DNA from: Acidovorax temperans
Lineage (GTDB): Bacteria; Pseudomonadota; Gammaproteobacteria; Burkholderiales; Burkholderiaceae_C
Direction: 5' to 3'
Assembly: GCF_006716905.1 (NCBI RefSeq)
Contig: NZ_VFPV01000001.1
Span: 1,056,001 to 1,120,000 of the forward strand
DNA length: 64,000 nt
Shown: one piece after another, positions 14,887 to 53,774 of the stretch
Numbering within the stretch: position 1 is the stretch's first letter
Layout: every line of letters begins with the position of its first letter
Notes under the pieces: generated by a model
Told to the model about the DNA's origin: nothing
Database searches by the model: none
What the model saw: only the letters and a program-made list of their open reading frames with translations
Position numbers and translations under genes: made by a program

Positions 14887-15256
14887 ACCCGACCTCTTTT
14901 CAGGTTAAAACACAGCGGCAGATTCAGGGTAGGATCGCGCCCCTTCGAAACCTCCATCCAAGCTGTACGCGCCCCTGCGGGGCAAATTCCGCGACAGCCC
15001 GCGCAGCCACAACATTTGACGCGCCAAACCTTGCGATCACGCGGGCTTGACTGCCATGCATTCCTGCGAAGTGGCTCTTGAACCACTGGTTTGGAGCACT
15101 CACCCAGCCAAGGCATTACACTACCGGTAGTGTCTTGAACACGATCGACACACCATATATAGTGTGCAACAACCAAAACGGTTGCACACGCCTAGCCTTT
15201 GCAGCAGCCCCGACCTGCTGCCATTTCTCCCCCGCCAGCCCACAGAGAGGACACCC
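14887..15256 (+). promoter_or_regulatory. nrdAB upstream region with promoter and long leader
   Basis: This 370-base gap has no gene. It holds a sigma-70 promoter TTGAAC (15135-15140), 17 bases, TATAGT (15158-15163), two NrdR boxes, and a leader of about 85 bases with a stem-loop (GTGTGCAAC 15162-15170 / GTTGCACAC 15181-15189, perfect 9-base arms) at or near the transcript's 5' end. GAGAGGA precedes the nrdA ATG. Confidence 0.8.
15118..15165 (+). promoter_or_regulatory. Pair of NrdR boxes controlling nrdAB
   Basis: Box 1 is ACACTACCGGTAGTGT (15118-15133, a perfect palindrome). Box 2 is ACACCATATATAGTGT (15150-15165, 15 of 16 to the consensus ACACWATATATWGTGT). Their starts are 32 bases apart, about three helical turns, as in known NrdR targets. 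Box 1 abuts the -35 hexamer and box 2 covers the -10, so dATP/ATP-bound NrdR should block RNA polymerase. Confidence 0.93.
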
Positions 15257-18163
15257 ATGCAAGCTGCTTTGAACACCCCTGCCACCCCGCACGCGACCCC
15301 TGAAGAGACCGCAGGCGACGCTGCCAACACAGCAGCCAATGCGCAGGGCCACTACCAGATCATTCGGCGCAATGGCGCGGTGGTCCCGTTCGAAGCCCCC
15401 AAGATTGCCATCGCATTGATGAAGGCGTTTCTGGCCGTCCACGGCACCCAGGGCGCTGCTTCGGCCAGCGTGCGTGAAGTGGTGGATGCACTGACCCAGG
15501 GCGTCACCCGCGCGCTGATGCGCTCGCGCCCAGGAGGCGGTACCTTCCACATTGAAGATGTACAAGACCAGGTCGAACTGGGCCTGATGCGCGGCGGCCA
15601 CCACGAAGTGGCGCGTGCTTACGTTTTGTATCGCGAGCGCCGTGCACAAGAACGCGCTAACCAGGTTCAGCAACAGGCCCCAGCGGCCCCCGCGCTGCAT
15701 GTTCTGGAAAATGGCCAGCGGGTTGCCCTGGACCCGCGTCGCCTGCAGTCGCTGATTGAATCGGCCTGTGTGGGACTGGGCCAGGATGTCAAAGCTGACC
15801 CCATCGTGGCAGAAACCATGCGCAACCTGTACGACGGCGTCCCCATGGACGAGGTGTACAAGGCTTCCATCCTCGCAGCCCGCACCCTGATCGAAAAAGA
15901 CCCGGACTACACCTACGCCACCGCACGCCTGCTGCTGCACACCATCGTGCGCGAAGTGCTAGGCCGTGATGTAACCCAGGACCAGATGGCCCAGGCTTAC
16001 ACCGAGTACTTCCCTCAATTCATCCAGAAGGGCGTAGATAACGAACTGCTGGACCCACGCCTGCTCAAGTTCAACCTGGCTCGATTGGCCTCCGCGCTCA
16101 AGCCCCAGCGCGACCTGCAGTTTGACTACCTCGGCCTGCAAACCCTGTACGACCGCTATTTCCTGCACGTCCGCAAGACCCGCATCGAACTGCCACAGGC
16201 TTTCTTCATGCGCGTCGCCATGGGCCTGTCCCTCAACGAGGCGGACCCAGAAGCCCGTGCCATTGAGTTCTATGAAGTGCTCTCCAGCTTCGACTTCATG
16301 TCGAGCACGCCCACGCTCTTCAACAGCGGCACGCTGCGCTCGCAACTGTCCAGTTGCTACCTGACCACCGTGCCTGACGACCTGGACGGCATCTACGAAT
16401 CCATCAAGGAAAACGCCTTGCTGTCCAAGTTTGCGGGCGGCCTGGGCAACGACTGGACGCGCGTGCGCGCCCTGGGCTCGCATATCAAGGGCACCAACGG
16501 CGAATCCCAAGGCGTGGTTCCCTTCCTCAAGGTGGTGAATGACACGGCCGTAGCAGTCAACCAGGGCGGCAAGCGCAAGGGCGCCGTCTGCACGTACCTG
16601 GAAACCTGGCACCTTGACATCGAAGAATTCCTGGAGCTGCGCAAGAACACCGGCGATGACCGCCGCCGCACGCATGACATGAACACGGCCAACTGGATCC
16701 CTGACCTGTTCATGCGCCGCGTGATGGAAAAGGGCACCTGGACTCTGTTCTCGCCTTCCAACGTGCCTGATCTGCACGACCTGTTTGGCGCAGAGTTCGA
16801 GAAGGCCTATGTGGCCTATGAAGCCAAGGCCGCCAGTGGCGAACTCAAGCCCAGCAAGACGGTGCAAGCCACCGACCTGTGGCGCAAGATTCTCACCATG
16901 CTGTTCGAAACTGGCCATCCCTGGATCACGTTCAAGGATGCCTGCAACGTGCGCTCGCCCCAGCAACACGCTGGCGTGGTGCACTCGTCCAACCTGTGCA
17001 CGGAAATCACGCTCAACACCAGCGACACCGAAACAGCGGTGTGCAACCTGGGCTCGGTGAACCTGCGCCAGCACTTGAAGAACGGCCAGATTGACCACGA
17101 GAAGCTGAAGAAAACGATCACGGTGGCCATGCGCATGCTGGACAACGTTATCGACATCAACTACTACGCGGTCAAGAAGGCGCGTGACTCCAACCTGCGC
17201 CACCGCCCTGTGGGCCTGGGCCTGATGGCGTTCCAGGACAGCCTCTATGAATTGCGCATTCCTTACGCGTCGCAAGAAGCTGTCGAGTTTGCCGATCGCT
17301 CGATGGAAGCGATCTGCTACTACGCCTACTGGGCATCGACCGAGCTCGCCAAGGAACGCGGTCAGTACTCCAGCTATAAGGGCTCGCTGTGGGATCGCGG
17401 CATCCTGCCTTTTGACACCCTGGACATGCTGGCGCAAGCCCGTGGTGGCTACGTTGAAGTGGACCGCTCGTCCACCCTCGACTGGGATGCTCTGCGCAAG
17501 AAGATTGCACAAGACGGCATGCGCAACTCCAACTGCGTTGCCATCGCACCCACAGCCACCATCTCCAACATCATTGGTGTGGACGCATCGATCGAACCCT
17601 CGTTCGGTAACCTGTCGGTCAAATCCAACCTTTCCGGCGAGTTCACGGTCATCAACGGAGGTCTGGTGCGCGACCTCAAGCGGCTGGGTCTGTGGGATGA
17701 CGTGATGATCATGGACCTCAAGCACTTCAAGGGTTCGCTGCACCCCATCGACCGTGTGCCTGCAGATATCAAGGCGCTGTATTCCACGGCGTTTGAAGTC
17801 GAACCCAAGTGGCTGGTGGAAGCCGCTTCGCGCCGACAAAAGTGGATCGATCAGGCGCAGAGCCTGAACATCTACATGGCTGGCGCTTCGGGCAAGAAGC
17901 TTGACGACACCTACAAACTGGCATGGGTGCGCGGCCTCAAGACCACGTACTACCTGCGCACACAAAGCGCTACGCACGTGGAAATGAGCACCGTGAACAC
18001 ACGTCAGCTCAACGCCGTGTCGTCGGGGCCAGAAAGCGTATCGGCCCACGCCGCTGAAGGCTCGGCAGCCACGCTGGCCAGTGCAGCGCCTGGTAGCACC
18101 GTGCCTGCCACCGACGTCAAATTCACAGCCATTGACGACGTCGCATGTGAGGCGTGCCAGTAA
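15257..18163 (+). CDS. nrdA: Class Ia ribonucleoside-diphosphate reductase, alpha subunit
   Basis: 968 residues. An ATP-cone for dATP/ATP activity control occupies about 30-130 (IIRRNGAVVPFEAPKIAIALMKAF). The barrel holds the catalytic cysteines: SSCYL near 366, NLCTEI near 580 and VCNLGSVNL near 595. The C-terminal tail ends CEACQ, the redox pair that reloads the active site. The ATG at 15257 with GAGAGG upstream is chosen; upstream in-frame codons to 15164 would overlap the NrdR-controlled promoter and leader. It makes dNDPs with NrdB, 135 bases downstream. The protein is about 200 residues longer than E. coli NrdA, partly from an N-terminal Ala/Thr-rich extension. Confidence 0.97.
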   Translation: MQAALNTPATPHATPEETAGDAANTAANAQGHYQIIRRNGAVVPFEAPKIAIALMKAFLAVHGTQGAASASVREVVDALTQGVTRALMRSRPGGGTFHIEDVQDQVELGLMRGGHHEVARAYVLYRERRAQERANQVQQQAPAAPALHVLENGQRVALDPRRLQSLIESACVGLGQDVKADPIVAETMRNLYDGVPMDEVYKASILAARTLIEKDPDYTYATARLLLHTIVREVLGRDVTQDQMAQAYTEYFPQFIQKGVDNELLDPRLLKFNLARLASALKPQRDLQFDYLGLQTLYDRYFLHVRKTRIELPQAFFMRVAMGLSLNEADPEARAIEFYEVLSSFDFMSSTPTLFNSGTLRSQLSSCYLTTVPDDLDGIYESIKENALLSKFAGGLGNDWTRVRALGSHIKGTNGESQGVVPFLKVVNDTAVAVNQGGKRKGAVCTYLETWHLDIEEFLELRKNTGDDRRRTHDMNTANWIPDLFMRRVMEKGTWTLFSPSNVPDLHDLFGAEFEKAYVAYEAKAASGELKPSKTVQATDLWRKILTMLFETGHPWITFKDACNVRSPQQHAGVVHSSNLCTEITLNTSDTETAVCNLGSVNLRQHLKNGQIDHEKLKKTITVAMRMLDNVIDINYYAVKKARDSNLRHRPVGLGLMAFQDSLYELRIPYASQEAVEFADRSMEAICYYAYWASTELAKERGQYSSYKGSLWDRGILPFDTLDMLAQARGGYVEVDRSSTLDWDALRKKIAQDGMRNSNCVAIAPTATISNIIGVDASIEPSFGNLSVKSNLSGEFTVINGGLVRDLKRLGLWDDVMIMDLKHFKGSLHPIDRVPADIKALYSTAFEVEPKWLVEAASRRQKWIDQAQSLNIYMAGASGKKLDDTYKLAWVRGLKTTYYLRTQSATHVEMSTVNTRQLNAVSSGPESVSAHAAEGSAATLASAAPGSTVPATDVKFTAIDDVACEACQ

Positions 18164-44300: not shown

Positions 44301-45840
44301 GCAGCTGGACGCAGACACCCTGAACGCCCGCCTGCAGTGGGCCAGCGCACGCGCTGGCGAGATTGACGCCACCGCCAGCACCCGCCTGCAGTGGGGCAAA
44401 GACACCGCCCCCTGGCCTGCAGACGCACCGCTGGCCGGCAGCGTGCGCGCCCGTCTGCCCGACGTGGGTGTGTGGTCTGCCCTGGCACCCCCCGGCTGGC
44501 GCGTGCGCGGCACGCTGGATGCCAACGCCACGTTGTCGGGCACGCGCAACGCCCCGCGCTGGTCTGGCACGCTGGCGGCCGATGAGCTGGCGGTGCGCTC
44601 ACTCATCGATGGCGTGGACCTGCAAGGCGGCCGCCTGCGGGCCAGCCTGCGCGGCAACCAGCTGGAGCTGACCGAGTTCCAGCTGCAAGGCGGGCGCGGC
44701 AGCAAGGCCCGCATTGCCGGGCAAAGCGGCAACCGCACCCAGACCCCCACCGACCGGGGCAGCCTCTCGGCCACGGGCCGCCTGACCTGGAGCGATGCCG
44801 ACACCACCAGCGGCACCCCACCGCGCATTGCCATGGACCTGCAAGCCCAGGCCCAGGCGCTGCAGGTGCTGGTGCGGGCCGACCGGCAGGTGAGCGTGTC
44901 GGGCAACCTGCGGGCGCAGCTGCAAGAAGGCCAGTTCAGCCTGACCGGCAAACTCACCACCGACCGCGCCACCATCATCCTGCCCGACGAAACAGCCCCC
45001 ACGCTGGACTCTGACGTGGTCATCCGCTCTGCCGCGCGCGACCGCGAAGCCCAGGCCCGCGCCCAGGCCGCCGCCCAAGCCCACCAAAAGGCCGAGCAAG
45101 CGCCCCAGCTGGTGCCCGCCAAGCCAGCGGTCATCGCCATCACGCTGAACCTGGGCAACGACTTTGCCCTGCAGGGCCGGGGCATCACCACCCGGCTCAC
45201 GGGCGAGGTGGATGTGCGCAGCGCCGCCACCGCAGGCGCCCCACCCCGCGTGACGGGCGAGGTGCGCACCGAAGAGGGACGCTACCGCGCCTGGGGCCAG
45301 ATGCTGGACGTGGAGACCGGGTTGATCCGCTTCAACGGGCCGTACAACAACCCTTCGCTCGACATCCTGGCGCTGCGCCCCAACATCAGTGTGCGGGCGG
45401 GCGTGCAGGTCAGCGGCTCAGCCCTGGCCCCGCGCGTGCGCCTGTATTCCGACCCCGAGCTGCCCGACGCTGAAAAACTCGCCTGGGTGGTGCTGGGCCG
45501 CGATGCCACCGCCGGCGGTGCCCAGGCCGCCGTGCTGCAACAAGCCGCCCTGGTTCTGCTGGGCCGCCGCGGGCAATCGCCCACCGGCAACCTCGCCAGC
45601 CGCGTGGGTCTGGACGAAATCGGCTTCAAAGGCGCGGCCCCCGGCGAAGACGCCAACACCGCCGCCCTCACCTTCGGCAAGCGCATTTCCAAAGACCTGT
45701 ACCTGACGTACGAACGCACGCTGTCGGGCACCCTGGGCGCGCTCTACATCTTCTACGACCTCTCGCGCAACCTCACCCTGCGGGGCCAGGCGGGCAGCAA
45801 CAGCGCGGTAGACCTGATCTACACGATGAAGTACGACTGA
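41383..45840 (+). CDS. tamB: Translocation and assembly module protein TamB
   Basis: 1485 residues. A basic, proline-rich cytoplasmic tail is followed by one membrane helix (WLGWAVAALLLAIALAGAGLWWW), then a long beta-rich, Ala/Gln/Pro-biased periplasmic bridge, and the C-terminal TamB (DUF490) domain with ITLNLGNDFALQGRGITTRL, LRPNISVRAGVQVSG, PELPDAEKLAWVVLGRD and LTYERTLSGTLGALY. It spans the periplasm and probably carries lipids to the outer membrane. The true ATG overlaps the tamA stop by one base; an open frame continues upstream inside tamA but is not coding. Confidence 0.95.
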   Translation: MPTFNEPTGPASPPSPPSPTEPARTTAPPPRRRSALRWLGWAVAALLLAIALAGAGLWWWAGQATSLATVLQRTAQWLPAGQSLQSRDVTGSLRSGGRIGWLRWSSPSLVVDVTDAQVGWQLPLLLQRRLELRDIRAARIHVTPLEHDQPAAPPQPLQELVLPLAVELGFQVDQLQWGDNPALQAQGLAGTYRFDGQDHRLTISNLALAQGRYTASAVLQARAPMALQATVDGTVTTPLPGRTEAFTAAAQVRADGTLATEAARLNLEANLQPEGATPAPGTAPKARVLAVTPAAMRATAQATVRPWAPQPLEQARATLQAVNLAALWPQAPTTDLHGTLTAGPDASTGTSTQAPAQAGAWNLTADLTNRAPGPWDTQRLPLAGLQAQARYAAGGWTVNQATATVGQAPRAGSLDLQGSFAPATGALQGSIRLRNLSPAALHSALAASPLSGSVQAQMPSQASPLTSTVVRLTADIRSAAPTGTAPASATDLRIDAFTAQGQWNPEDNGGTVHIERLALDALRARLQATDLRVSRGAPPSATPAAGNATAASAVAGQGLVQLTLPGSQVRVQGNIAPRTGQGEGSWSLTDADQTLRWLGRLPWLGKDLQGTLRTASAKGQAQLELQWKGGWSTLQQQLHTAAQGLPPSAGAKAPPFQIQTSLTSPQLDLVLPPQASGTADATNVATLLQLRALKAELNGQLTQATLRLESEARTGTQRLSLQTQATGGLSGAGQWQAQWSQLRAQWQDTRRPGVWTAQLTQPLAMSLRTGASPGTAVAPSARASSTASAAPASKPQGLTLQASAGQAQITGPVPGTVALRWQPVRLTTVAGGLPRLQTQGTLQGLPLAWVDAFGMDAAPTAAPSTAVPGAASTSPTAPTLAPQPLLARLGLATDLLLEGQWNVDTTESLRATASLRRTQGDLRILSAEPPAQTTSVSTGQGLGPGSVTTITPASTAATSRGTPAGVRQAELSVQLDADTLNARLQWASARAGEIDATASTRLQWGKDTAPWPADAPLAGSVRARLPDVGVWSALAPPGWRVRGTLDANATLSGTRNAPRWSGTLAADELAVRSLIDGVDLQGGRLRASLRGNQLELTEFQLQGGRGSKARIAGQSGNRTQTPTDRGSLSATGRLTWSDADTTSGTPPRIAMDLQAQAQALQVLVRADRQVSVSGNLRAQLQEGQFSLTGKLTTDRATIILPDETAPTLDSDVVIRSAARDREAQARAQAAAQAHQKAEQAPQLVPAKPAVIAITLNLGNDFALQGRGITTRLTGEVDVRSAATAGAPPRVTGEVRTEEGRYRAWGQMLDVETGLIRFNGPYNNPSLDILALRPNISVRAGVQVSGSALAPRVRLYSDPELPDAEKLAWVVLGRDATAGGAQAAVLQQAALVLLGRRGQSPTGNLASRVGLDEIGFKGAAPGEDANTAALTFGKRISKDLYLTYERTLSGTLGALYIFYDLSRNLTLRGQAGSNSAVDLIYTMKYD

Positions 45841-45894
45841 GAACCTGTTCCAAGCCCCGCCCCCCCGCCCGCAGCCTCTACAATCCCGCCCTGT

Positions 45895-45969
45895 CTCCTC
45901 GTAGTTCAATGGATAGAACGAGTGCCTCCTAAGCGCTAGATACAGGTTCGATTCCTGTCGAGGAGACCA
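45895..45969 (+). tRNA. tRNA-Arg (anticodon CCU)
   Basis: A cloverleaf can be drawn: acceptor CTCCTCG / CGAGGAG, D-stem GTTC / GAAC with GGAT loop, anticodon stem AGTGC / GCGCT with loop CTCCTAA (anticodon CCT), T-stem ACAGG / CCTGT with TTCGATT, then discriminator A and an encoded CCA at 45967-45969. It reads AGG codons. The integrated element starts within its T-arm/acceptor sequence. Confidence 0.96.
45947..45962 (+). repeat. attL: direct repeat within the tRNA 3' end
   Basis: TTCGATTCCTGTCGAG, covering the T-loop and the start of the acceptor 3' strand of tRNA-Arg. The functional tRNA 3' end (GAGACCA after it) is kept at this side. Confidence 0.8.
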
Positions 45970-46003
45970 AGTGACCGAATCGCACTGTCTCACAACAGCT
46001 CAG

Positions 46004-46037
46004 AAACCCGCATGTTTCCTAGCATCGCGGGTTTTTT
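46004..46037 (+). terminator. Terminator after tRNA-Arg, at the left edge of the element
   Basis: AAACCCGC ... GCGGGTTT with a 15-base loop, followed by TTTC. A sequence-related hairpin (GAAACCC ... GGGTTTC, 52758-52782) lies at the right edge. Confidence 0.75.
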
Positions 46038-46071
46038 CTTGTCTCAGGCCATATCACCCCGTAACATGACA

Positions 46072-46132
46072 TACCGCCAAAACGGCGGTACTTTTGACGG
46101 TATCTTGAAATACCGCCAAACGACATACCGCC
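46072..46132 (+). repeat. Cluster of TACCGCC inverted/direct repeats before the integrase
   Basis: TACCGCC-AAAAC-GGCGGTA (46072-46090, perfect 7-base arms), then GGTAT ... ATACC (46099-46114) and a further ATACCGCCAAACG near 46125. It contains GGTACTTTTGACGGTA (46087-46102), repeated at the right end (52721-52736). These are candidate arm-type binding sites for the integrase or an excisionase, and may double as operators of the int promoter. Confidence 0.65.
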
Positions 46133-46147
46133 AAACGGGAGGAACTC

Positions 46148-47365
46148 ATGGCGCTGACAGATACCTTCACCAAAAACGCAAAACACAGCGGCAAACCTGC
46201 TGGCGACAAGCACCGCGATGGCAACGGCATGTACTTGCTGGTGACTGCGGGCGGCAAGTACTGGCGCATGGACTACCGCTTTGCCGAAAAACGCAAAACA
46301 CTTGCGCTGGGCGTGTACCCCGAGGTCTCACTGGCGAAGGCCAGACAGCGACGCGAAAAAGCACGCGAGCTGCTGGCGGACGGAATCGACCCCGGCATTG
46401 CCAAGCGCGAGGAAAAGCAAGCCAAGGCGGCAGCGGCAGGAAACACCTTTGAGGCGGTGGCAGAGCAATGGCTCAAAGCCACGGCAGCAAAGCGGGCCGC
46501 CATCACGCAGGACAAGGTTTCGACGTGGCTGCGCAAAGACGTGTTCCCCTACATCGGCAAGATGCCTATCACCACCATCGGGCCGCGTGACGTGTTGGCC
46601 GTGGTGCGCAAGATGGAAGCGCGGGGCGTGATCGACAGCGCAAAGCGCATCGGCCAGATATGCGGGCAGGTGTTCCGCTACGCGGTAGCCGAGGGCACGG
46701 CAGAGCGGGACGTGACCACCGACCTGCGCGGCGCATTCCAGCACGCAGAGAAAAAGCACTATGCCGCCATCACCGACCCGGCAAAGCTGGGCGGTCTGCT
46801 GCGCTCCATCCATGCCTACACCGGGCACCCCTACAGCGTGGCGGCACTGAAGCTGTCCCCGCTGGTGTTCCTGCGTCCCGGCGAACTGCGCACCGGCGAA
46901 TGGGCCGAGATTGATCTGGAGGCGGCAGAGTGGCGCATTCCCGGCAGCAAGATGAAGATGAAGAATGACCACATCGTCCCGCTGTCGCGGCAGGCCGTGG
47001 AGATTTTGCAAAGCCTGCACCCCATCACCGGGCATGGCCGCTATGTGTTCCCCAGCCTGCGCACAGGCGAACGCCCCATGAGCGAGAACACGGTGAATGC
47101 GGCGCTGCGCGGCATGGGCTACAGCAACGAGGTGCATACCGCTCACGGGTTCCGGGCCACGGCGCGCACCATCATGGATGAGGTGCTGGGCGAGCGGGTG
47201 GACCTGATCGAGCACCAACTGGCCCATGCGGTGAAGGATGCCAATGGGCGGGCCTACAACCGCACCGCGCACCTGCCAGCGAGGCGGGAAATGATGCAGC
47301 GGTGGGCGGACTACCTGGACAAGCTGCGCATTGGCGCGGATGTGATCCAGTTCAAAGCAGCTTGA
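46148..47365 (+). CDS. int: Tyrosine recombinase/integrase
   Basis: 405 residues. The N-terminal arm-binding domain (DUF4102 type; ALTDTFTKNAKHSGKPAGDK ... LALGVYPEVSLAKARQRR) is followed by a core-binding domain (about 95-190) and the catalytic domain. Catalytic residues are Arg in LRPGELRTGEW near 244, His-x-x-Arg in HTAHGFRATART near 332, a second His in IEHQLAH near 357 and the nucleophilic Tyr in GRAYNRT near 369. P4-type integrases of this kind use tRNA 3' ends as targets. GGAGG lies seven bases before the ATG at 46148. Confidence 0.97.
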   Translation: MALTDTFTKNAKHSGKPAGDKHRDGNGMYLLVTAGGKYWRMDYRFAEKRKTLALGVYPEVSLAKARQRREKARELLADGIDPGIAKREEKQAKAAAAGNTFEAVAEQWLKATAAKRAAITQDKVSTWLRKDVFPYIGKMPITTIGPRDVLAVVRKMEARGVIDSAKRIGQICGQVFRYAVAEGTAERDVTTDLRGAFQHAEKKHYAAITDPAKLGGLLRSIHAYTGHPYSVAALKLSPLVFLRPGELRTGEWAEIDLEAAEWRIPGSKMKMKNDHIVPLSRQAVEILQSLHPITGHGRYVFPSLRTGERPMSENTVNAALRGMGYSNEVHTAHGFRATARTIMDEVLGERVDLIEHQLAHAVKDANGRAYNRTAHLPARREMMQRWADYLDKLRIGADVIQFKAA

Positions 47366-47411
47366 ATACCTACATGCACAGCATGACCCTTCAGAGCCTT
47401 TTTCACAAAAA

Positions 47412-47487
47412 ACACTACCTATAGCGCCTTACCCCCCTAAAAAACACTACAGATAGTGTTGCACGACTATGAACTACGAGATATTAT
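47412..47487 (+). promoter_or_regulatory. Promoter region of the element's replication operon with two NrdR-like boxes
   Basis: Box A is ACACTACCTATAGCGC (47412-47427, 12 of 16 to the NrdR consensus). Box B is ACACTACAGATAGTGT (47444-47459, 14 of 16, and 14 of 16 identical to the host nrdA box 1). Starts are 32 bases apart, exactly as at nrdA. In the host-equivalent positions lie TTACCC (47429-47434), 17 bases, GATAGT (47452-47457). A better promoter TTGCAC (47459-47464), 17 bases, TATTAT (47482-47487) begins at the edge of box B. Confidence 0.65.
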
Positions 47488-47554
47488 CCGGCCGCCTACA
47501 TAGACGAGGCTGGACAAAACCACAGTACCCACACAGTCGGGCGGAAAGTGAAAA

Positions 47555-48031
47555 ATGGCATCCATAAACAAACTCATCATCATCGGTAATCTGGGCCGAG
47601 ACCCTTATTGCGACATCGTAAATACCGCCATTGCTGGCATGGTTCACCGTCACTTGACTGGCAATGACCATGCTCCAACGCTGAGCATTTCCGACGACAT
47701 GCCAGCAACCGGTGGCGGTGGAGAGAGCGCACCGGGCGCCCCGGAGGTGGCTGCATCGGACGACGATAGCGGCGATGGTGACGGCGACCCCGACTCAGAC
47801 CGACGAAGCCGCCCACGTTCCAAATCATCACACCCATCTTTCCCGCCCGCGCTACTCGCGTTTGAGCCTCTCTCGCACTACGTCGGTTTTGGCCGTAGTC
47901 GCATCTACCAGCTAATCGCCGCTGGTGAATTTCCCCAACCAATCAAAGTCGGTAAGTCGTCCCGCTGGGTGAAAGCGGAAGTTGACGCATGGATCAGCAA
48001 GCAAGCCACATCGCAACGAGTGGGGGGCTAA
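47555..48031 (+). CDS. AlpA-like regulator with an SSB N-terminal fragment (chimera)
   Basis: 158 residues. The first 17 (MASINKLIIIGNLGRDP) are those of a betaproteobacterial single-stranded DNA-binding protein, but the OB-fold then stops. A disordered Gly/Asp/Ser-rich stretch follows (45-95), and the C-terminal 60 residues are an AlpA/MerR-type winged helix (SHYVGFGRSRIYQLIAAGEFPQPIKV, then SSRWVKAEVDAWI). AlpA proteins activate integrase or excisionase genes of P4-like elements. GGAAAG lies before the ATG; an internal ATG at 47699 would skip the SSB piece. Confidence 0.75.
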   Translation: MASINKLIIIGNLGRDPYCDIVNTAIAGMVHRHLTGNDHAPTLSISDDMPATGGGGESAPGAPEVAASDDDSGDGDGDPDSDRRSRPRSKSSHPSFPPALLAFEPLSHYVGFGRSRIYQLIAAGEFPQPIKVGKSSRWVKAEVDAWISKQATSQRVGG

Positions 48032-48034
48032 GAC

Positions 48035-48361
48035 ATGCTGACAGCACGACAACATGCCGCAACGGCAGGACAAGTCACGTCCCACGCAGCCGCTACCAAC
48101 TTTGACACGTTGCCTGACAGCGCATTTATTCGCGAAGCGCAACTGGTGCAGAGCCCCAAACGACCGGACACCCCGGCCCCCCTGCCCTTCAGCGCGCCGA
48201 CCCTGTGGCGCAAGGTGAAGGCGGGCACATTCCCCGCACCCGTCAAATTGTCTGAGCGCGTGACCGCTTGGAATGTAGGCGCTGTGCGGGCTTGGATCGC
48301 CAGCCATTGCGCAACGCAACAGACAGGGACGCAAGCAAAGAGCCGGGAGGGTGAGCAATGA
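48035..48361 (+). CDS. Second AlpA-family regulator
   Basis: 108 residues. The core LPFSAPTLWRKVKAGTFPAPVKLSERVTAWNVGAVRAWIASH is a complete AlpA-type DNA-binding fold (recognition helix, then wing with W-x-x-x-x-V). It differs from the upstream copy in sequence, so it is not a recent duplication. It starts three bases after the upstream stop and overlaps the next gene by four bases (ATGA). It probably controls excision or the operon itself. Confidence 0.82.
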   Translation: MLTARQHAATAGQVTSHAAATNFDTLPDSAFIREAQLVQSPKRPDTPAPLPFSAPTLWRKVKAGTFPAPVKLSERVTAWNVGAVRAWIASHCATQQTGTQAKSREGEQ

Positions 48362-48609
48362 CCCAAAAGAAAACGCCCGACCCCACCAAAGCAGAATCGA
48401 GCGCGCCGAACACCGCGCAGTCTATCGCTACCGGCAAGGATTTTCACGCCCTGCGCAGTGCCTTTGCCCAGCAGGGGCACCACCTGCACAGCATTGCAGC
48501 GCCGAACGGCACAACCACCTATTGGGCCGAGCGCTGGGGGTTGGTGCGCTACCTGCCCAGCCTGCACGATGCCGCGCTGTTTCTGGCGCAGATTGGGGGG
48601 CGGCTGTGA
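48358..48609 (+). CDS. Small unknown protein of the element, 83 aa
   Basis: A Lys/Thr/Ser-rich N-terminus, then a compact region with FHALRSAFAQQGHHLHSIAAPNGTTTYWAERWGLVRYLPSLHDAALFLAQIG. It resembles small genes that often precede DUF3987 primase genes in integrated elements. Coupled on both sides (ATGA with alpA, GTGA with the primase). No function assigned. Confidence 0.7.
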   Translation: MTQKKTPDPTKAESSAPNTAQSIATGKDFHALRSAFAQQGHHLHSIAAPNGTTTYWAERWGLVRYLPSLHDAALFLAQIGGRL

Positions 48610-51062
48610 TCGCATCCGAACAATTCCAACAAGCCATTGCAGGTGCTGGCCTGCCCGTGCCCGAGGTGATCCACGGCGACGGCACGCTGTACCGATTCAG
48701 CACCAACGGCAAGCGCATGGATCAATCGGGCTGGTATGTCTTGCACGACGATGGCGACGTTCCGGCGGGTGCTTTTGGCTGCTGGCGCAGCGGTCTATCT
48801 CAGACCTGGTGCAGCAAGGACACCCAGGCAATGACCCAGGCCGAGCGCAGCGCCCACCAGCAGCGCATGCAGGCCATTGCCCAGCAGCGCGAAGCAGACA
48901 AGGCCCAGCGCCAGCACGATGCAGCGACGGCGGCGGCGCAGCGCTGGGAAGCTGCTGAACCTGCCCCAGCGGAACATCTCTATCTGGTGCGCAAAGGCAT
49001 CCAACCCCACGGCATCAAGGCCGAGGGCGAGGCGCTGCTGATCCCGCTGCGCGATGCATCGACCACCTTGCACAGCCTGCAAGCCATCGGCCCCGAGGGG
49101 GATAAACGCTTTCAACCGGGCGGGCGCATCAAGGGCTGCTACTTTGGCATTGGCAAGCCCAAGGGCGTGCTGATCGTGTGCGAGGGTTTCGCCACCGGGG
49201 CCAGCATCCATGAGGCTACCGGCCATGCCGTAGCGTGCGCAATGAACGCGGGCAATCTGCTGGAGGTGGCCCAGGCACTGCACAGCAAGTATCCCAAGCT
49301 GCGCCTGATCCTGGCAGCGGACGATGATGCGTTTACCGACGGCAATCCGGGTATCACCAAGGCCACCGAGGCGGCAAAGGCCGTAGGTGGCTACCTCACA
49401 AAACCTGACTTTGGCGAGCAGCGCAGCGCGGCAGAAACCGACTTCAACGACTTGCACCAGCAGGCCGGATTGGACGCTGTGAAGGCATGTATTGAAGCGG
49501 CTGCGCCCGTGGCGCAAGAGCCTGCATTCCCGCCATTGGAGGGTGCGGGCGACGGCGGCGCATGGCCTGACCCCACGCCCCTGCCCGACGCCCTGCCACC
49601 CGTGGCCCCGTTTGATGCCGAGCTGTTGCCCCACGCGCTGCGCGGCTGGATCGTGGACATTGCCGAGCGCATGCAGTGCCCGCCGGATTTTCCGGCTGTA
49701 GGTGTCATCACGGCGCTGTCTGGCCTGATCGGTGCGCGTGCCGTGGTGGCGCCCAAGCAGCACGATGATTGGCGCGTAGTGCCCAACCTGTGGGGGCTGA
49801 TCGTGGGCCGCCCAGGCGTGATGAAGTCCCCGGCGCTGGGTGAAGTCCTGAAGCCGCTGCACCGGCTGGAATCGACCGAGCGCGAGCAATGGCAGGCCGC
49901 GCATGAAGCATGGGAACTCGACACCAAGGTGGCCGAACTGGCAGGCAAGGCGAACGAGAAGCAAGCAGCGGCTGTTGCGGCAAAAGACCCCGATAAGGCA
50001 CGGGCGCTGCTGGCCCCCACCGAACAGCCCACCGAGCCGACGATGCGGCGCTACGTGGTCAACGACAGCACGGTGGAGGCACTGGCCGACCTGTTGGTAG
50101 AAAACCCATGGGGCCTGCTGGTATACCGCGATGAAGTCCACGGCCTGCTGTGCAGCATGGATCGGCAGGGGCAGGAAGGCGCACGCGGTTTCTACCTGAC
50201 AGGCTACGACGGCAATCAAGGCCATGCGGTGGATCGGATCGGGCGCGGGCACAGCTATGTGCCCCGTGTCTGCATGGCGATGCTGGGCGGCATTCAACCG
50301 GGCAAGGTGCAGAGCTATGTGCGCGAAGCCGTGAACGGCGGCGCGGGCGACGATGGCCTGTTGCAGCGCTTTGGCCTGGCGGTATGGCCCGACATTCAGC
50401 AGGAATTCAAGCTGGTAGATCGGTGGCCCGACACACCGGCGAAGCAAGCGGCATGGGCCGTGTTCGAGCGCCTGAATGGACTGCTGCCAGCCACCGACGA
50501 TGATCCCCAGGAATGGCGATTCAGTCCCGAGGCGCAGGCCATTTTTTATGAATGGCTGATCCCGTTCGAGACCGGCATCCGGGGGGATGATTTGCATCCG
50601 GCGCTGGTGTCGCACCTTGCCAAGTGGCGCAAGCTGATTCCGGCGCTGGCGCTGATCTTTGCATTGGTGGACACACCCGACACCAACGGCGTGATCCATG
50701 AGGGCGAGTTGATCCGGGCACTGGCGTGGGCCGAGTACCTGCGCACCCATGCCGAGCGGCTGTATGCGGCGGCACTGATCCCGGAGACCACGGGGGCGCA
50801 TGCGCTGCTGGTGAAGATCAAGGGCGGCAAGCTGTGCGACGGCGACGGGGTGCTGTGGGAGTCGTTCACACCCCGGCTGGTAGCCGTCAAAAGCTGGGCC
50901 GGATTGAATTCAGTGGACAGCGTGCGCAAGGCGGCGGAACTGCTGGCCGATTACGGCTGGCTGGCACGGGAGACCGTTCCATCGGGCGACACCATGGGCA
51001 GGGGCAGGCCCAGCGACCGCTACATGATCCATCCGGCGCTGCTGGCAGGGGGGCAAGCATGA
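48606..51062 (+). CDS. TOPRIM/DUF3987 primase-helicase of the element
   Basis: 818 residues. N-terminal part: a DNA-binding/primase-like region with WYVLHDDGDVPAGAFGCWRSG, then a TOPRIM domain with KGVLIVCEGFATGASIHEATG near 187 and LRLILAADDDAFTDGNPG near 235, holding the metal-binding Glu and Asp residues. C-terminal part: DUF3987 helicase with the nucleotide-binding loop GRPGVMKSPALGE near 400, and LLVYRDEVHGLLCSMDRQG. It should prime and unwind DNA to replicate the excised element. GTG 48606 overlaps the upstream stop (GTGA); the frame is open further upstream but that part is antisense-free shadow of the 83-aa gene. Confidence 0.88.
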   Translation: MIASEQFQQAIAGAGLPVPEVIHGDGTLYRFSTNGKRMDQSGWYVLHDDGDVPAGAFGCWRSGLSQTWCSKDTQAMTQAERSAHQQRMQAIAQQREADKAQRQHDAATAAAQRWEAAEPAPAEHLYLVRKGIQPHGIKAEGEALLIPLRDASTTLHSLQAIGPEGDKRFQPGGRIKGCYFGIGKPKGVLIVCEGFATGASIHEATGHAVACAMNAGNLLEVAQALHSKYPKLRLILAADDDAFTDGNPGITKATEAAKAVGGYLTKPDFGEQRSAAETDFNDLHQQAGLDAVKACIEAAAPVAQEPAFPPLEGAGDGGAWPDPTPLPDALPPVAPFDAELLPHALRGWIVDIAERMQCPPDFPAVGVITALSGLIGARAVVAPKQHDDWRVVPNLWGLIVGRPGVMKSPALGEVLKPLHRLESTEREQWQAAHEAWELDTKVAELAGKANEKQAAAVAAKDPDKARALLAPTEQPTEPTMRRYVVNDSTVEALADLLVENPWGLLVYRDEVHGLLCSMDRQGQEGARGFYLTGYDGNQGHAVDRIGRGHSYVPRVCMAMLGGIQPGKVQSYVREAVNGGAGDDGLLQRFGLAVWPDIQQEFKLVDRWPDTPAKQAAWAVFERLNGLLPATDDDPQEWRFSPEAQAIFYEWLIPFETGIRGDDLHPALVSHLAKWRKLIPALALIFALVDTPDTNGVIHEGELIRALAWAEYLRTHAERLYAAALIPETTGAHALLVKIKGGKLCDGDGVLWESFTPRLVAVKSWAGLNSVDSVRKAAELLADYGWLARETVPSGDTMGRGRPSDRYMIHPALLAGGQA

Positions 51063-51787
51063 GCACCTGGCTTGCACTGCTAAAAAATAAAAACACCCCA
51101 GGAGCAGGGGCTACAAAACCTACGAAACCCACCCAACACACCCATGCAGGGGGTTTTGTAGGTTTCGTAGCCTACCCCCAGGGGCATATTCAGAAATTCG
51201 ACGGGGCTGTGGCGAACCCCGAAACCCCGGCTGCGAACGCACCCACCACCGACCCCGACCGCTGGGCCTGGCCGCACAGCAGCGCCATGAACGGGCAGGA
51301 ACTCGACACCTTCATGGCGCGGCAGGCCCTGTTCTGCCAGCGTGGTGCAGCGCCCCAAGATGCCGAGCGCCTGGCCGACAGTCTGGTGAACCGGGATCGT
51401 GACGACGACGACCGGCGGCTGTGCCTGGAGTGCCGACACCTGCACGGTGCTGGCCCCTACCGCTGCGGCAATGCACGGGCGGCTGGCGTGCATGCTGACC
51501 TGGCCCGTGGCCTGGTGCTGATATTGCAGCGCTGCCATGGGTATGACGATGCACGCTTGCCCATGGGGGTGATGGTTGACGCGGCACCACCGACAGCAGC
51601 GCCAGCGACCGAACCACCCCGCACGCCATCCGGCCCATCCTGGCGGGAACTGGATCGCGCCTATCTGGCGCACCACCAGCAATGCAGTGTCTGCCAGTGT
51701 GCAGGCCGGGGCTACGGGCAGCGCTGCGCTACGGGCTTTGAGCTTTGGGCGGCGTACAGCAACATGAATTCAGACTTGAAGGAATAA
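51059..51787 (+). CDS. Unknown protein with two Cys clusters
   Basis: 242 residues, coupled to the primase gene (ATGA). The N-terminal 45 residues carry the mirrored peptides TKPTKPT and GFVGFVA, encoded by an imperfect DNA inverted repeat. The middle has a cysteine cluster CLECRHLHGAGPYRCG (150-165), and the end a second one, CSVCQCAGRGYGQRC, both possible zinc sites. Proteins of this build accompany DUF3987 primases in other integrated elements. A DNA- or RNA-binding accessory to replication is plausible but not shown. Confidence 0.7.
   Translation: MSTWLALLKNKNTPGAGATKPTKPTQHTHAGGFVGFVAYPQGHIQKFDGAVANPETPAANAPTTDPDRWAWPHSSAMNGQELDTFMARQALFCQRGAAPQDAERLADSLVNRDRDDDDRRLCLECRHLHGAGPYRCGNARAAGVHADLARGLVLILQRCHGYDDARLPMGVMVDAAPPTAAPATEPPRTPSGPSWRELDRAYLAHHQQCSVCQCAGRGYGQRCATGFELWAAYSNMNSDLKE
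51109..51172 (+). repeat. 22-base inverted repeat inside the Cys-cluster gene
   Basis: Arms 51109-51130 and 51151-51172 are complementary at 20 of 22 positions, with a 20-base loop. Each arm contains two tandem CTACRAAACC units. An AT-rich patch (TAAAAAATAAAAAC, 51081-51094) lies just upstream. Candidate origin/iteron or mRNA hairpin. Confidence 0.75.
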
Positions 51788-51790
51788 ACC

Positions 51791-52429
51791 ATGGCAACCA
51801 CCAAAAACACCAAGGGCAAGGACAAGACCCCGCCTGATCCCAATGCATTGCGGGTTGAAGTGCAGCCGGATGACAACCGTTCCGAAAAGCTGGCCGCGAT
51901 GGCAACCGCTGGCGCATTCACTGCGGCAACGATGCACACCTACACAGACGCAGGCGAAGCGCTGGGAGTGACGGAGCTATTGGCCGCCATGCGCAAGGCC
52001 GGGGACGAGACCGTGGCCGGAGACATGGGCCGGTTTGAGCGCGTACTGACGAACCAGTTTCTGACCCTGGACGCGCTGTTCAACAACCTGGCGCAACGCT
52101 CAGGGCGGCAGGAATCTTTCAAGGGCATTGAGGTGCTGATGCGGCTGGCCCTGAAGGCGCAGTCCCAGGCACGCGCAACGGCGGAGACCCTGGCACTGAT
52201 GAAGAACCCCATGCCCTACATCCGGCAAGCCAACATTGCCCATGGCCCCCAGCAGGTCAACAACGGCACTCCCACGAGCGCGGGGAAAAATCAAAGTCCA
52301 CCAAACGAACTATTGGAGCACCAGCATGGCAACACCCTGGACATTGGAGCGACGGCAACGGCAGGCCGAGCTGATCCGGCAATGGCAACCGTGGAAGCAA
52401 AGCACCGGCCCACGAACACCCGAGGGTAA
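51791..52429 (+). CDS. Unknown protein of the element, 212 aa
   Basis: Good ribosome-binding site (GAAGGA) before ATG 51791. A charged N-terminus (TKNTKGKDKTPPDPNAL) is followed by a helical domain (about 35-140) with LTNQFLTLDALFNNLAQRSG and IRQANIAHGPQQVNNGT, a segment also seen in phage and satellite proteins of unknown role. The last 35 residues overlap the next gene in another frame and look like low-quality coding sequence. No enzyme motif. Confidence 0.7.
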   Translation: MATTKNTKGKDKTPPDPNALRVEVQPDDNRSEKLAAMATAGAFTAATMHTYTDAGEALGVTELLAAMRKAGDETVAGDMGRFERVLTNQFLTLDALFNNLAQRSGRQESFKGIEVLMRLALKAQSQARATAETLALMKNPMPYIRQANIAHGPQQVNNGTPTSAGKNQSPPNELLEHQHGNTLDIGATATAGRADPAMATVEAKHRPTNTRG

Positions 52430-52550
52430 GGCCGCGTCATCACGCAACGCCTGGCAGGGTGGGCACCGGGCGCAACTGCGGGAGCTGACCCAGGCGCTGA
52501 ATGCCGAGCTGGCAGAGATGCGACGGATTAACAAGCTGGCGCGGGGTTGA
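52326..52550 (+). CDS. Small conserved element protein, 74 aa
   Basis: TPWTLERRQRQAELIRQW followed by QPWKQSTGPRTPEGKAASSRNA is a recurring signature in phages and integrated elements (Lys/Arg-rich, with S-TGP-TPEGK). A second helix (LTQALNAELAEMRRI) ends it. GGAGCACC precedes the ATG. It overlaps the end of 51791-52429 by 104 bases in a different frame. Function unknown; it may bind nucleic acid. Confidence 0.75.
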   Translation: MATPWTLERRQRQAELIRQWQPWKQSTGPRTPEGKAASSRNAWQGGHRAQLRELTQALNAELAEMRRINKLARG

Positions 52551-52791
52551 TAGAGGGCGGGCGCTGGCATGCTGGGGGTAGGGGAAAAGTCTAGGCCTGC
52601 GACGTGGGAGACACCCCGTAGTTCCGCACGCGCAGAAAAAATCCCCGTCTGAAAACAATCAAACGCGTAGCCGAACAGACGTGTGGGGAGTGTGCGACAT
52701 GGGGAGACTTTTACAAATGACGGTACTTTTGACGGTACTTTTCTAAATCGAAAACATGAAACCCAGCATTCATGCGGGTTTCAAGCCATCA
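52551..52791 (+). other. Right-end noncoding region of the element
   Basis: No gene seen. It holds two tandem copies of GACGGTACTTTT (52718-52729 and 52730-52741), matching the left-end arm sequence, and a hairpin GAAACCC-A-GCAT-TC-ATGC-GGGTTTC (52758-52782) just before attR. Confidence 0.6.
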
Positions 52792-52807
52792 TTCGATTCC
52801 TGTCGAG
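52792..52807 (+). repeat. attR: direct repeat at the right end
   Basis: TTCGATTCCTGTCGAG, followed by CCATCACC. Aligning CGAG-CCA with CGAGGAGACCA of the tRNA shows a four-base gap (GAGA), so this copy can no longer rebuild a working tRNA 3' end. Confidence 0.75.
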
Positions 52808-52824
52808 CCATCACCATACAAGCC

Positions 52825-52880
52825 AAATTGGCCTCCAGCGCTTGATATATAAGCGCTAGCAGCTACGAAATATGTAGCAA
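52825..52880. repeat. AGCGCTT palindromic repeat, copy 7
   Basis: CCAGCGCTTGATATATAAGCGCTAGCAGCTA, 18 bases past attR and before the rhtA stop. This is host sequence, which helps to place the right border of the element. Confidence 0.8.
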
Positions 52881-52892
52881 ACATCCATCCCA

Positions 52893-53774
52893 TCAAGCAG
52901 GCTGCGCCTGCACCGCAGGCAGCCTGCGCGCCGTTGCGGCGCTGCCCATCGACGCCGCCACGATGCAGCCAATGGCGAGCCACTGCACGGTGTCCAGCCG
53001 CTCGCCCAGCAACGCCAGGGCCAGCAGGGCCGCCACGGCGGGCTCCATGCTGATCATGATGCCGAAGGCCTCTTTGGGCAGGCGCTTCAGGGCCATCATC
53101 TCCAGCGAGATGGGCAGCGCGCTGGAGATGGCCGCCACAGCCACCCCCACCAGCAGCACCGAGGGCGACAGCAGCGCAGCGCCTGCGTGGGCCACGCCCA
53201 CCGGCACCACCACCAGCGCCGCCACCAGCAGGCCCAGCGACACCGACTGCCCGGCATGCAGGTGCCCGGCCCGTTTGCCAAACACGATGTACAGCGCCCA
53301 GAACACGGCCGCCCCCACGGCATACAGCACGCCCAACGGATCCAGCGTGCTGCCACTCAGCCCCAGCGGCAGCAGCAGGGCCAGGCCCACGATGGCGAGA
53401 GCCACCCACACAAAATCCACGGCGCGGCGCGATGACCAGATGGCCACGGCCAGCGGCCCCGCAAACTCGATGGCCACCGCCAGGCCAAAAGGCAGGGTCT
53501 GGAGTGACAGATAGAACATGAGGTTCATGGCGCCCAGCGCTGCGCCATACAGCGCCACTGCTTGGGCATCGGCCCGCGACAGGCGCCAGCGCCAGGGGCG
53601 CCACAACATCAGCATCAACAGCGCCGACAACCCCACCCGCACGGCGGTGGTGCCCTGCGCGCCCACCACCGGAAACAGGGCCTGCTTAGCCCACGAGGTG
53701 CCCACCCCCAGGGCGGTGACGGAGCCAAGGACGGCAAGAAAAGGAATAAACCGTTGAAAAGGGGATGCGCTCAT
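52893..53774 (-). CDS. rhtA: EamA-family exporter (RhtA-like, threonine/homoserine type)
   Basis: 293 residues with ten hydrophobic helices arranged as two EamA halves. The RhtA-type signatures are FGLAVAIEFAGPLAVAIW in the first half and ISSALPISLEMMALKRLPKEAFGIMISMEPAVAAL in the second, with LLGERL near the end. It lies in the inner membrane and probably exports amino acids such as threonine or homoserine. ATG 53774 is the start. Monocistronic, with AGCGCTT repeats on both sides. Confidence 0.85.
   Translation of the reverse strand: MSASPFQRFIPFLAVLGSVTALGVGTSWAKQALFPVVGAQGTTAVRVGLSALLMLMLWRPWRWRLSRADAQAVALYGAALGAMNLMFYLSLQTLPFGLAVAIEFAGPLAVAIWSSRRAVDFVWVALAIVGLALLLPLGLSGSTLDPLGVLYAVGAAVFWALYIVFGKRAGHLHAGQSVSLGLLVAALVVVPVGVAHAGAALLSPSVLLVGVAVAAISSALPISLEMMALKRLPKEAFGIMISMEPAVAALLALALLGERLDTVQWLAIGCIVAASMGSAATARRLPAVQAQPA

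Follow-up and report, generated by a model that had tools for sequence, protein, structure and literature searches.

A candidate NrdR operator in front of the alpA–primase operon of a tRNA-integrated element of Acidovorax temperans

What wakes a small integrated element when its alpA–primase operon is preceded by what looks like a regulatory site of its host? The question is raised by a locus in Acidovorax temperans, where an element inserted in a tRNA gene carries a pair of NrdR-type boxes upstream of alpA. NrdR operators at ribonucleotide reductase (RNR) genes are already known, and no satellite under NrdR control was found in the open (non-subscription) PMC literature. The window analysed here is the whole stretch of 64,000 nucleotides, to which the coordinates in Table 1 refer.

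The element measures about 6.85 kb and is flanked by a 16-bp repeat, TTCGATTCCTGTCGAG, which lies inside tRNA-Arg at 45947 and occurs again at 52792. Its right arm is packed, with alpA1 ending 3 bases before alpA2 and the downstream genes overlapping at ATGA, GTGA and ATGA. The primase-helicase, which also matches phage primase and helicase families, was first thought to start at 48351 and most likely starts at GTG 48606 instead. Family scans found no capsid, portal or terminase gene in the element, and in an Rfam scan of 45700-53000 the tRNA alone reached the gathering score. We class it as a small element of the int-alpA-primase kind that has its alpA module in common with satellites resembling capsid-forming PICIs (cfPICI); it was not filed as a cfPICI itself because no capsid genes were found. 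The phage-inducible chromosomal minimalist islands (PICMI) of Vibrionaceae, described as islands of ~6 kb with int, alpA, a DUF3987 primase, short att repeats and no capsid genes (PMC10803314), resemble it in size, in int plus alpA plus a DUF3987/DUF5906-type primase, in the short att repeats and in the absence of a capsid. However, PICMI insert at fis, whereas the att cores of the window element lie in tRNA-Arg, and because it is not at fis the element was not filed as a PICMI either.

At the start of alpA1 (47555-47602), 43 of 48 bases are identical to the start of a host open reading frame that we take to be ssb. The same type of fusion (Pfam SSB plus AlpA) exists in a related element (L122:678-757), where 80 bases are 84% identical to another site in its genome, and in the other alpA1 siblings the acidic linker is the same but the N-termini in front of it are unrelated. 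This acidic segment, DMPxxGGGGESA...PEVAASDDDGGDGDGDPD (47681-47810 of the window), precedes the AlpA domain in eight aligned elements. An origin of the boxes from the ssb promoter was considered and rejected, since the 592 bases before host ssb contain neither a similar stretch (by eye) nor a box pair (locus L078 scanned).

Table 1. Features of the element and of its host used for comparison (window coordinates)
Feature	Coordinates	Strand	Sequence or remark
Host nrdA NrdR box pair (comparison)	15118..15165		boxes start at 15118 and 15150
tRNA-Arg (CCT), target gene	45895..45969	+	
attL core	45947..45962		TTCGATTCCTGTCGAG
Tyrosine integrase	46148..47365	+	
NrdR-type box A	47412..47427		ACACTACCTATAGCGC; 18.3 bits
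Promoter proposed at first, TTACCC-17-GATAGT	47429..47457	+	nrdA-promoter offset; weak; possibly a decayed nrdA-like promoter
NrdR-type box B	47444..47459		ACACTACAGATAGTGT; 26.2 bits
Likely promoter, TTGCAC-17-TATTAT	47459..47487	+	conserved in siblings; first T of the -35 is the last T of box B
alpA1	47555..48031	+	ssb-like first codons, acidic linker, C-terminal AlpA domain (PF05930)
alpA2 (PF05930)	48035..48361	+	
83-aa ORF	48358..48609	+	overlaps both neighbours (ATGA, GTGA); no family match
Primase-helicase (Toprim + DUF3987)	48606..51062	+	likely start GTG 48606
242-aa ORF	51059..51787	+	overlaps the primase stop (ATGA); no family match
212-aa ORF	51791..52429	+	no family match
attR core	52792..52807		TTCGATTCCTGTCGAG

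As the first-pass annotation had stated, two 16-base sites with starts 32 bases apart lie upstream of the AlpA/primase operon, at 47412 and 47444. They stand in the intergenic region 47366-47554, between the integrase and alpA1, with a 16-bp spacer between them, and reading of the letters confirmed that box B agrees with nrdA box 1 at 14 of 16 positions and box A at 12 of 16. The identical spacing of the host pair (15118/15150), upstream of nrdA, which starts at 15257, was likewise borne out. In a PWM built from 29 of the 30 family pair loci described below (own nrdA excluded, L195 and L198 retained), the element's pair scores 44.5 bits, the host nrdA pair 50.1 and the host nrdD pair 42.8, whereas the best pair in 20,000 mononucleotide shuffles of 47366-47554 reached 12.3 bits. 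With at most 3 mismatches over 24 positions, the whole 4.65-Mb genome contains exactly three 32-spaced pairs (those of nrdA, nrdD and the element's alpA1), and the reversed-pattern control found none. Within the window, the single-box pattern at up to 3 mismatches was matched in 8 rows, which are four sites each counted on both strands, versus a shuffle mean of 1.43. In a further single-box search, the reversed control gave 59 matches, exceeding the 16 of the real pattern on the forward strand. The reversed single-box pattern resembles a CRP site (TGTGA-N6-TCACA); therefore the pair, and not single boxes, was used as evidence. Chance palindromes in an AT-rich intergenic stretch are an extremely improbable explanation: box A does carry two mismatches to the core pattern and is off consensus at its 3′ edge (AGCGC), but the shuffles, the reversed-pattern controls and the conservation in several elements speak against chance, which was rejected on the shuffles and reversed controls. 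The suggestion that the pair is a copy of the host pair is not supported, as its spacer is no closer to the family spacers than shuffles are (best 9/16 against 30 family spacers, with 623 of 2,000 shuffles equally good).

NrdR boxes with 14-17 bp spacers function (PMC12051234), and two boxes three helix turns apart suit the NrdR tetramer (PMC9110341). The element offers two NrdR-consensus palindromes, a spacer in the 14-17 bp range and a host nrdR; absent is the ribonucleotide reductase gene, as the downstream operon is alpA-alpA-primase. Judged from its sequence, the pair is a strong candidate for an NrdR operator on a non-RNR operon. The known operators of the NrdR regulon (nrdAB, nrdHIEF, nrdDG) resemble it in consisting of a pair of 16-base palindromes spaced by about three helix turns, in the consensus and in the presence of the host repressor, and they lie at a promoter, which in the element is a probable one; the element's pair differs in preceding the alpA-primase genes of a mobile element and not an RNR gene. 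A paper dealing with NrdR boxes and prophage has the nrd operons of L. reuteri as its subject (PMC4667477).

The host nrdR is intact, and its protein matches solved NrdR structures (E 2e-41) and keeps R17, R26, R28 and R37; its position 15 is Glu, where the published specificity residue is Asp (D15). Host nrdD is a 683-codon open frame, with an ATP-cone match that starts 61 bases past box B. Across the family, the pair is present in 79 of 150 genomes, versus 2 matches of the reversed pattern in all 150. Loci were obtained for 30 of the family pair matches, not for every match, of which 25 lie before nrdA and 3 before nrdD; one (L195) runs off a contig end. Another of them, L198 (genome G022), has no NrdA or NrdD relative within 1.5 kb.

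The promoter at the boxes probably has to be placed differently than was first done. TTACCC-17-GATAGT had been proposed, with an offset from the boxes equal to that of the nrdA promoter, and the offset stands, since host TTGAAC-17-TATAGT sits in the same way relative to its own boxes. As a promoter, however, it is poor and not conserved among siblings, which conserve TTGCAC-17-TATTAT instead, in the form of TTGCAC or TTGCAG, 17 bases, and then TATTAT, AATAAT, TAAAAT or TAGAAT. In the window this conserved promoter abuts box B and falls below the threshold of a consensus sigma-70 scanner, which returned nothing over 47340-47600. Two alpA1 relatives without boxes (L122 and L138) retain a similar promoter (by eye), and it is not evident in L099. 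Box B of the element touches the likely -35, whereas box B at the host nrdA covers the -10.

The pair precedes alpA in eight elements, namely the window element, L212, L213, L214, L310, L055, L126 and L099, and four of the seven boxed relatives (L212, L213, L214 and L310) have capsid genes of their own and are cfPICI-like. L212-L214 are whole IMG/VR contigs, from which the loci L149-L151 were taken, and L290 is the same contig as L214. In L149-L151, alpA1 is 69-78% identical to that of the window and the box starts are 31 apart (15-bp spacer). By PHROGs, L212 encodes integrase, alpA1, prim-pol, major head protein, head protease, portal, HNH, TerS, TerL and connector; for L213 and L214 the genes confirmed are those of the head protein, the portal and TerL, the remaining ones being read from open reading frames. 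The primase of L213 is of the DUF3987 kind and those of L212 and L214 are of the prim-pol type. The integrase of L212 shares 90% identity with that of L213, whereas those of L214 and the window gave no match to either of these or to each other at E 1e-3. L212, L213 and L214 (int, alpA, primase, head, portal, terminase) have the same boxed alpA module as the window element, which differs from them in having no capsid or packaging gene by family scans. The gene content of such relatives suggests that a helper phage may mobilise the window element.

L310, likewise cfPICI-like and with a boxed alpA (int, alpA, primase genes, head protein and portal), encodes more specifically an integrase, replication ORFs, AlpA, a CHC2 zinc-finger protein, a head protein and a portal. 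Its pair and spacer share 39 of 48 bases with the promoter of nrdA in genome G142, TTGAAC-17-TATAGT is retained, and its spacer agrees with the nrdA spacer at 12/16 (2 of 2,000 shuffles equally good), so that, by these likenesses, the site is apparently a captured nrdA promoter; its box B is decayed (11.2 bits). Weaker, degenerate pairs of 27-28 bits precede alpA in L055 (a MAG), L126 (genome G270) and L099 (genome G226), all with AlpA by Pfam; L055 and L126 form one lineage with a related module. In G270 the host's own nrdA pair is degenerate as well, scoring 30.2 bits, not far from the 27.2 of its element L126. Spacers measure 16 bp in L055, L126 and L310 and 17 bp in L099 (starts 33 apart).

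How specific the motif is can be read from scans of loci chosen by other means. The unselected scan covered 298 loci (2.24 Mb, best match per locus), with 59 viral and 30 family loci chosen by motif left out and its RNR loci fetched by ATP-cone, not by motif; a repeat scan, with contained loci removed and all matches counted, covered 243 loci (1.99 Mb). In the 243 loci, all pairs of at least 20 bits are followed by an RNR gene or by the alpA of an element, and the reversed sequences of the same 1.99 Mb gave no pair. At the same time, most alpA elements looked at have none. A portal bait yielded 57 loci, of which 29 contained alpA (27 distinct upstream regions) and the remaining 28 showed no AlpA; the pair is present in 4 of the 29 (L290, L212, L213 and L310) and missing in 25. 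Among the aligned alpA1-type elements 6 of 8 have it, the two without (L122, L138) being in hosts (G291, G337) with nrdR and a boxed nrdA. The first-pass annotation had named related elements with the operon but without both boxes as evidence that would refute its proposal; this evidence is found in part, in these two and in L081, whereas the siblings L149-L151 keep the boxes. The primase siblings L081 (93%, from this genome) and L045 (Acidovorax) differ from the window element in their alpA and in their upstream region, which has no boxes, so a linkage of boxes to primase was rejected: the boxes go with the alpA side. In genome G235, an ATP-cone search matched nrdA alone and therefore found no nrdR, and both nrdA and an alpA1-like element have no pair; this single case fits the NrdR reading.

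A plasmid search with the promoter DNA gave no match, and in plasmid and phage searches with AlpA1 the matches listed covered the AlpA domain alone at <60% identity. Across 399 genomes of the order, most matches of an HMM search were to the AlpA domain; among the 30 loci obtained from it, the window's own is the sole one with a boxed promoter. The L055/L126 module pattern was not found in IMG/VR.

Other patterns were noticed on the way. Repeated CTACCGGCA-like units, perhaps iterons or another operator, stand upstream of alpA in L081:5300-5400 (minus strand) and L045:5280-5380 (by eye). Five of the 29 elements (L300, L324/L378, which are alike, L328 and L381) have exact DnaA boxes, TTATCCACA, in the 300 bases before alpA; the boxes may be origins or another sensor of host replication, and none of the five has an NrdR pair. 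IMG/VR viral contigs (L152-L181, L260-L288) contain 61 stretches with NrdR-type pairs versus 2 for the reversed pattern. Of the 61, 31 share terminase, portal or primase-helicase with L155, whose pair lies in the long stretch that separates its primase-helicase side from its terminase side. An NrdA/NrdD relative was found in L280 only among 59 viral pair loci tested, and the contigs also contain Fur-like (3) or DnaA (21) sites somewhere along their length; possibly they are phages regulated by, or titrating, host regulators. In L262 (2984-3375), two NrdR-like pairs with A-rich cores stand 343 bases apart in a phage-like context, the second ending ~34 bases before a ParE-type toxin-antitoxin ORF.

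At a probability of roughly 0.7, we read the pair as a host NrdR operator that would control the right-arm operon (alpA1, alpA2, the 83-aa gene, the primase-helicase and two further ORFs), with falling dATP releasing alpA and primase. Specifically, dATP-loaded NrdR would repress the operon; when dATP falls relative to ATP, because RNR activity is lost or because much DNA is being made, for example by a phage during infection, NrdR would leave the operator, AlpA and primase would be made, and the element would excise and replicate as the host RNR genes are also released. It would follow from such a mechanism that dATP-rich cells keep the operon off and that a fall in dATP releases it together with RNR synthesis. 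The first-pass annotation had likewise proposed an NrdR operator, and its interpretation is supported in part: consensus, three-turn spacing, third place among only three genome pairs, an intact nrdR and a satellite-type operon promoter speak for it, while the promoter that it named and the description of the pair as a copy are not supported. NrdR binding, repression rather than activation, and the phage trigger are what we infer.

The direction of control is where a possible, if doubtful, alternative lies, namely that NrdR binds but activates or weakly tunes the operon, induction depending mainly on a helper-phage protein or on AlpA. The boxes do lie upstream of the conserved -35 and not across the -10, P. 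aeruginosa topA is reportedly activated by NrdR from a single box (PMC4409342), and in the E. coli element EcCICFT073, where AlpA is an activator and the global repressor is unclear, helper phages induce alpA independently of SOS (PMC6092414). Two boxes at repressor-type spacing, with the -35 touching box B, are nevertheless consistent with repression, and the topA mechanism has been called questionable (PMC12051234). AlpA could also be the protein that binds: in E. coli PICIs the alpA promoter is activated by AlpA itself (PMC6092414, PMC11773190), and the pair precedes alpA in the elements scanned. However, an operator of an element-encoded protein, most plausibly for AlpA autoregulation, with a convergent likeness to NrdR boxes, is unlikely when quite different AlpA proteins (window, L055/L126, L099, L310) have the motif in common, elements of the same alpA1 type (L122, L138) do without it, the motif and its three-turn spacing are the same as at host RNR promoters and a recognisable nrdA promoter is present in L310.

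That same L310, with its captured-looking promoter and decayed box B, together with the degenerate boxes of L099, L055 and L126 and the many relatives without a pair, would suit a relic of a captured nrdA promoter that no longer functions. We consider this quite unlikely for the window element, since a relic would decay evenly, whereas the window and L149-L151 keep both palindromes while the intervening spacer changes, and each box of L212, L213 and L290 holds 5/6 outer complementary pairs.

Control by host NrdR would also bear on what is known of other satellites. The Gram-negative PICIs (EcCICFT073, EcCIMP1) resemble the element in having alpA before a replication gene as the induction switch; their global repressor is called 'unclear' and their helper inducer is under study (PMC6092414), whereas the window element has a predicted host-repressor site. 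In PICMI the early regulon is alpA-up1-prim, with its activation by the helper left open (PMC10803314), and for cfPICIs no host-regulator operator at alpA came up in the open PMC literature searched. One promoter makes two questions testable, namely how alpA is silenced in Gram-negative PICIs (PMC6092414) and by what means the early genes of PICMI are turned on by a helper phage (PMC10803314). We infer that NrdR may fill the global-repressor gap of PICIs in the lineage of the window element. More tentatively, and short of an even chance, a group of Gram-negative phage satellites may have given the missing role of master repressor to host NrdR by acquiring operators at alpA, apparently through capture of the nrdA promoter in at least the case of L310, such that a fall of dATP driven by any kind of replicating phage would induce them with no helper-specific protein.

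The box pair before alpA is a simple marker to seek in other satellites. If the NrdR reading is true, the NrdR regulon extends past RNR genes, and a nucleotide-sensing host repressor would act as a general infection sensor, hard for a phage to mutate away from. Since the pair is of the type found at host genes and occupies the same place in capsid-bearing relatives, the boxed alpA of these elements suggests that a nucleotide sensor of the host decides when such parasites wake.
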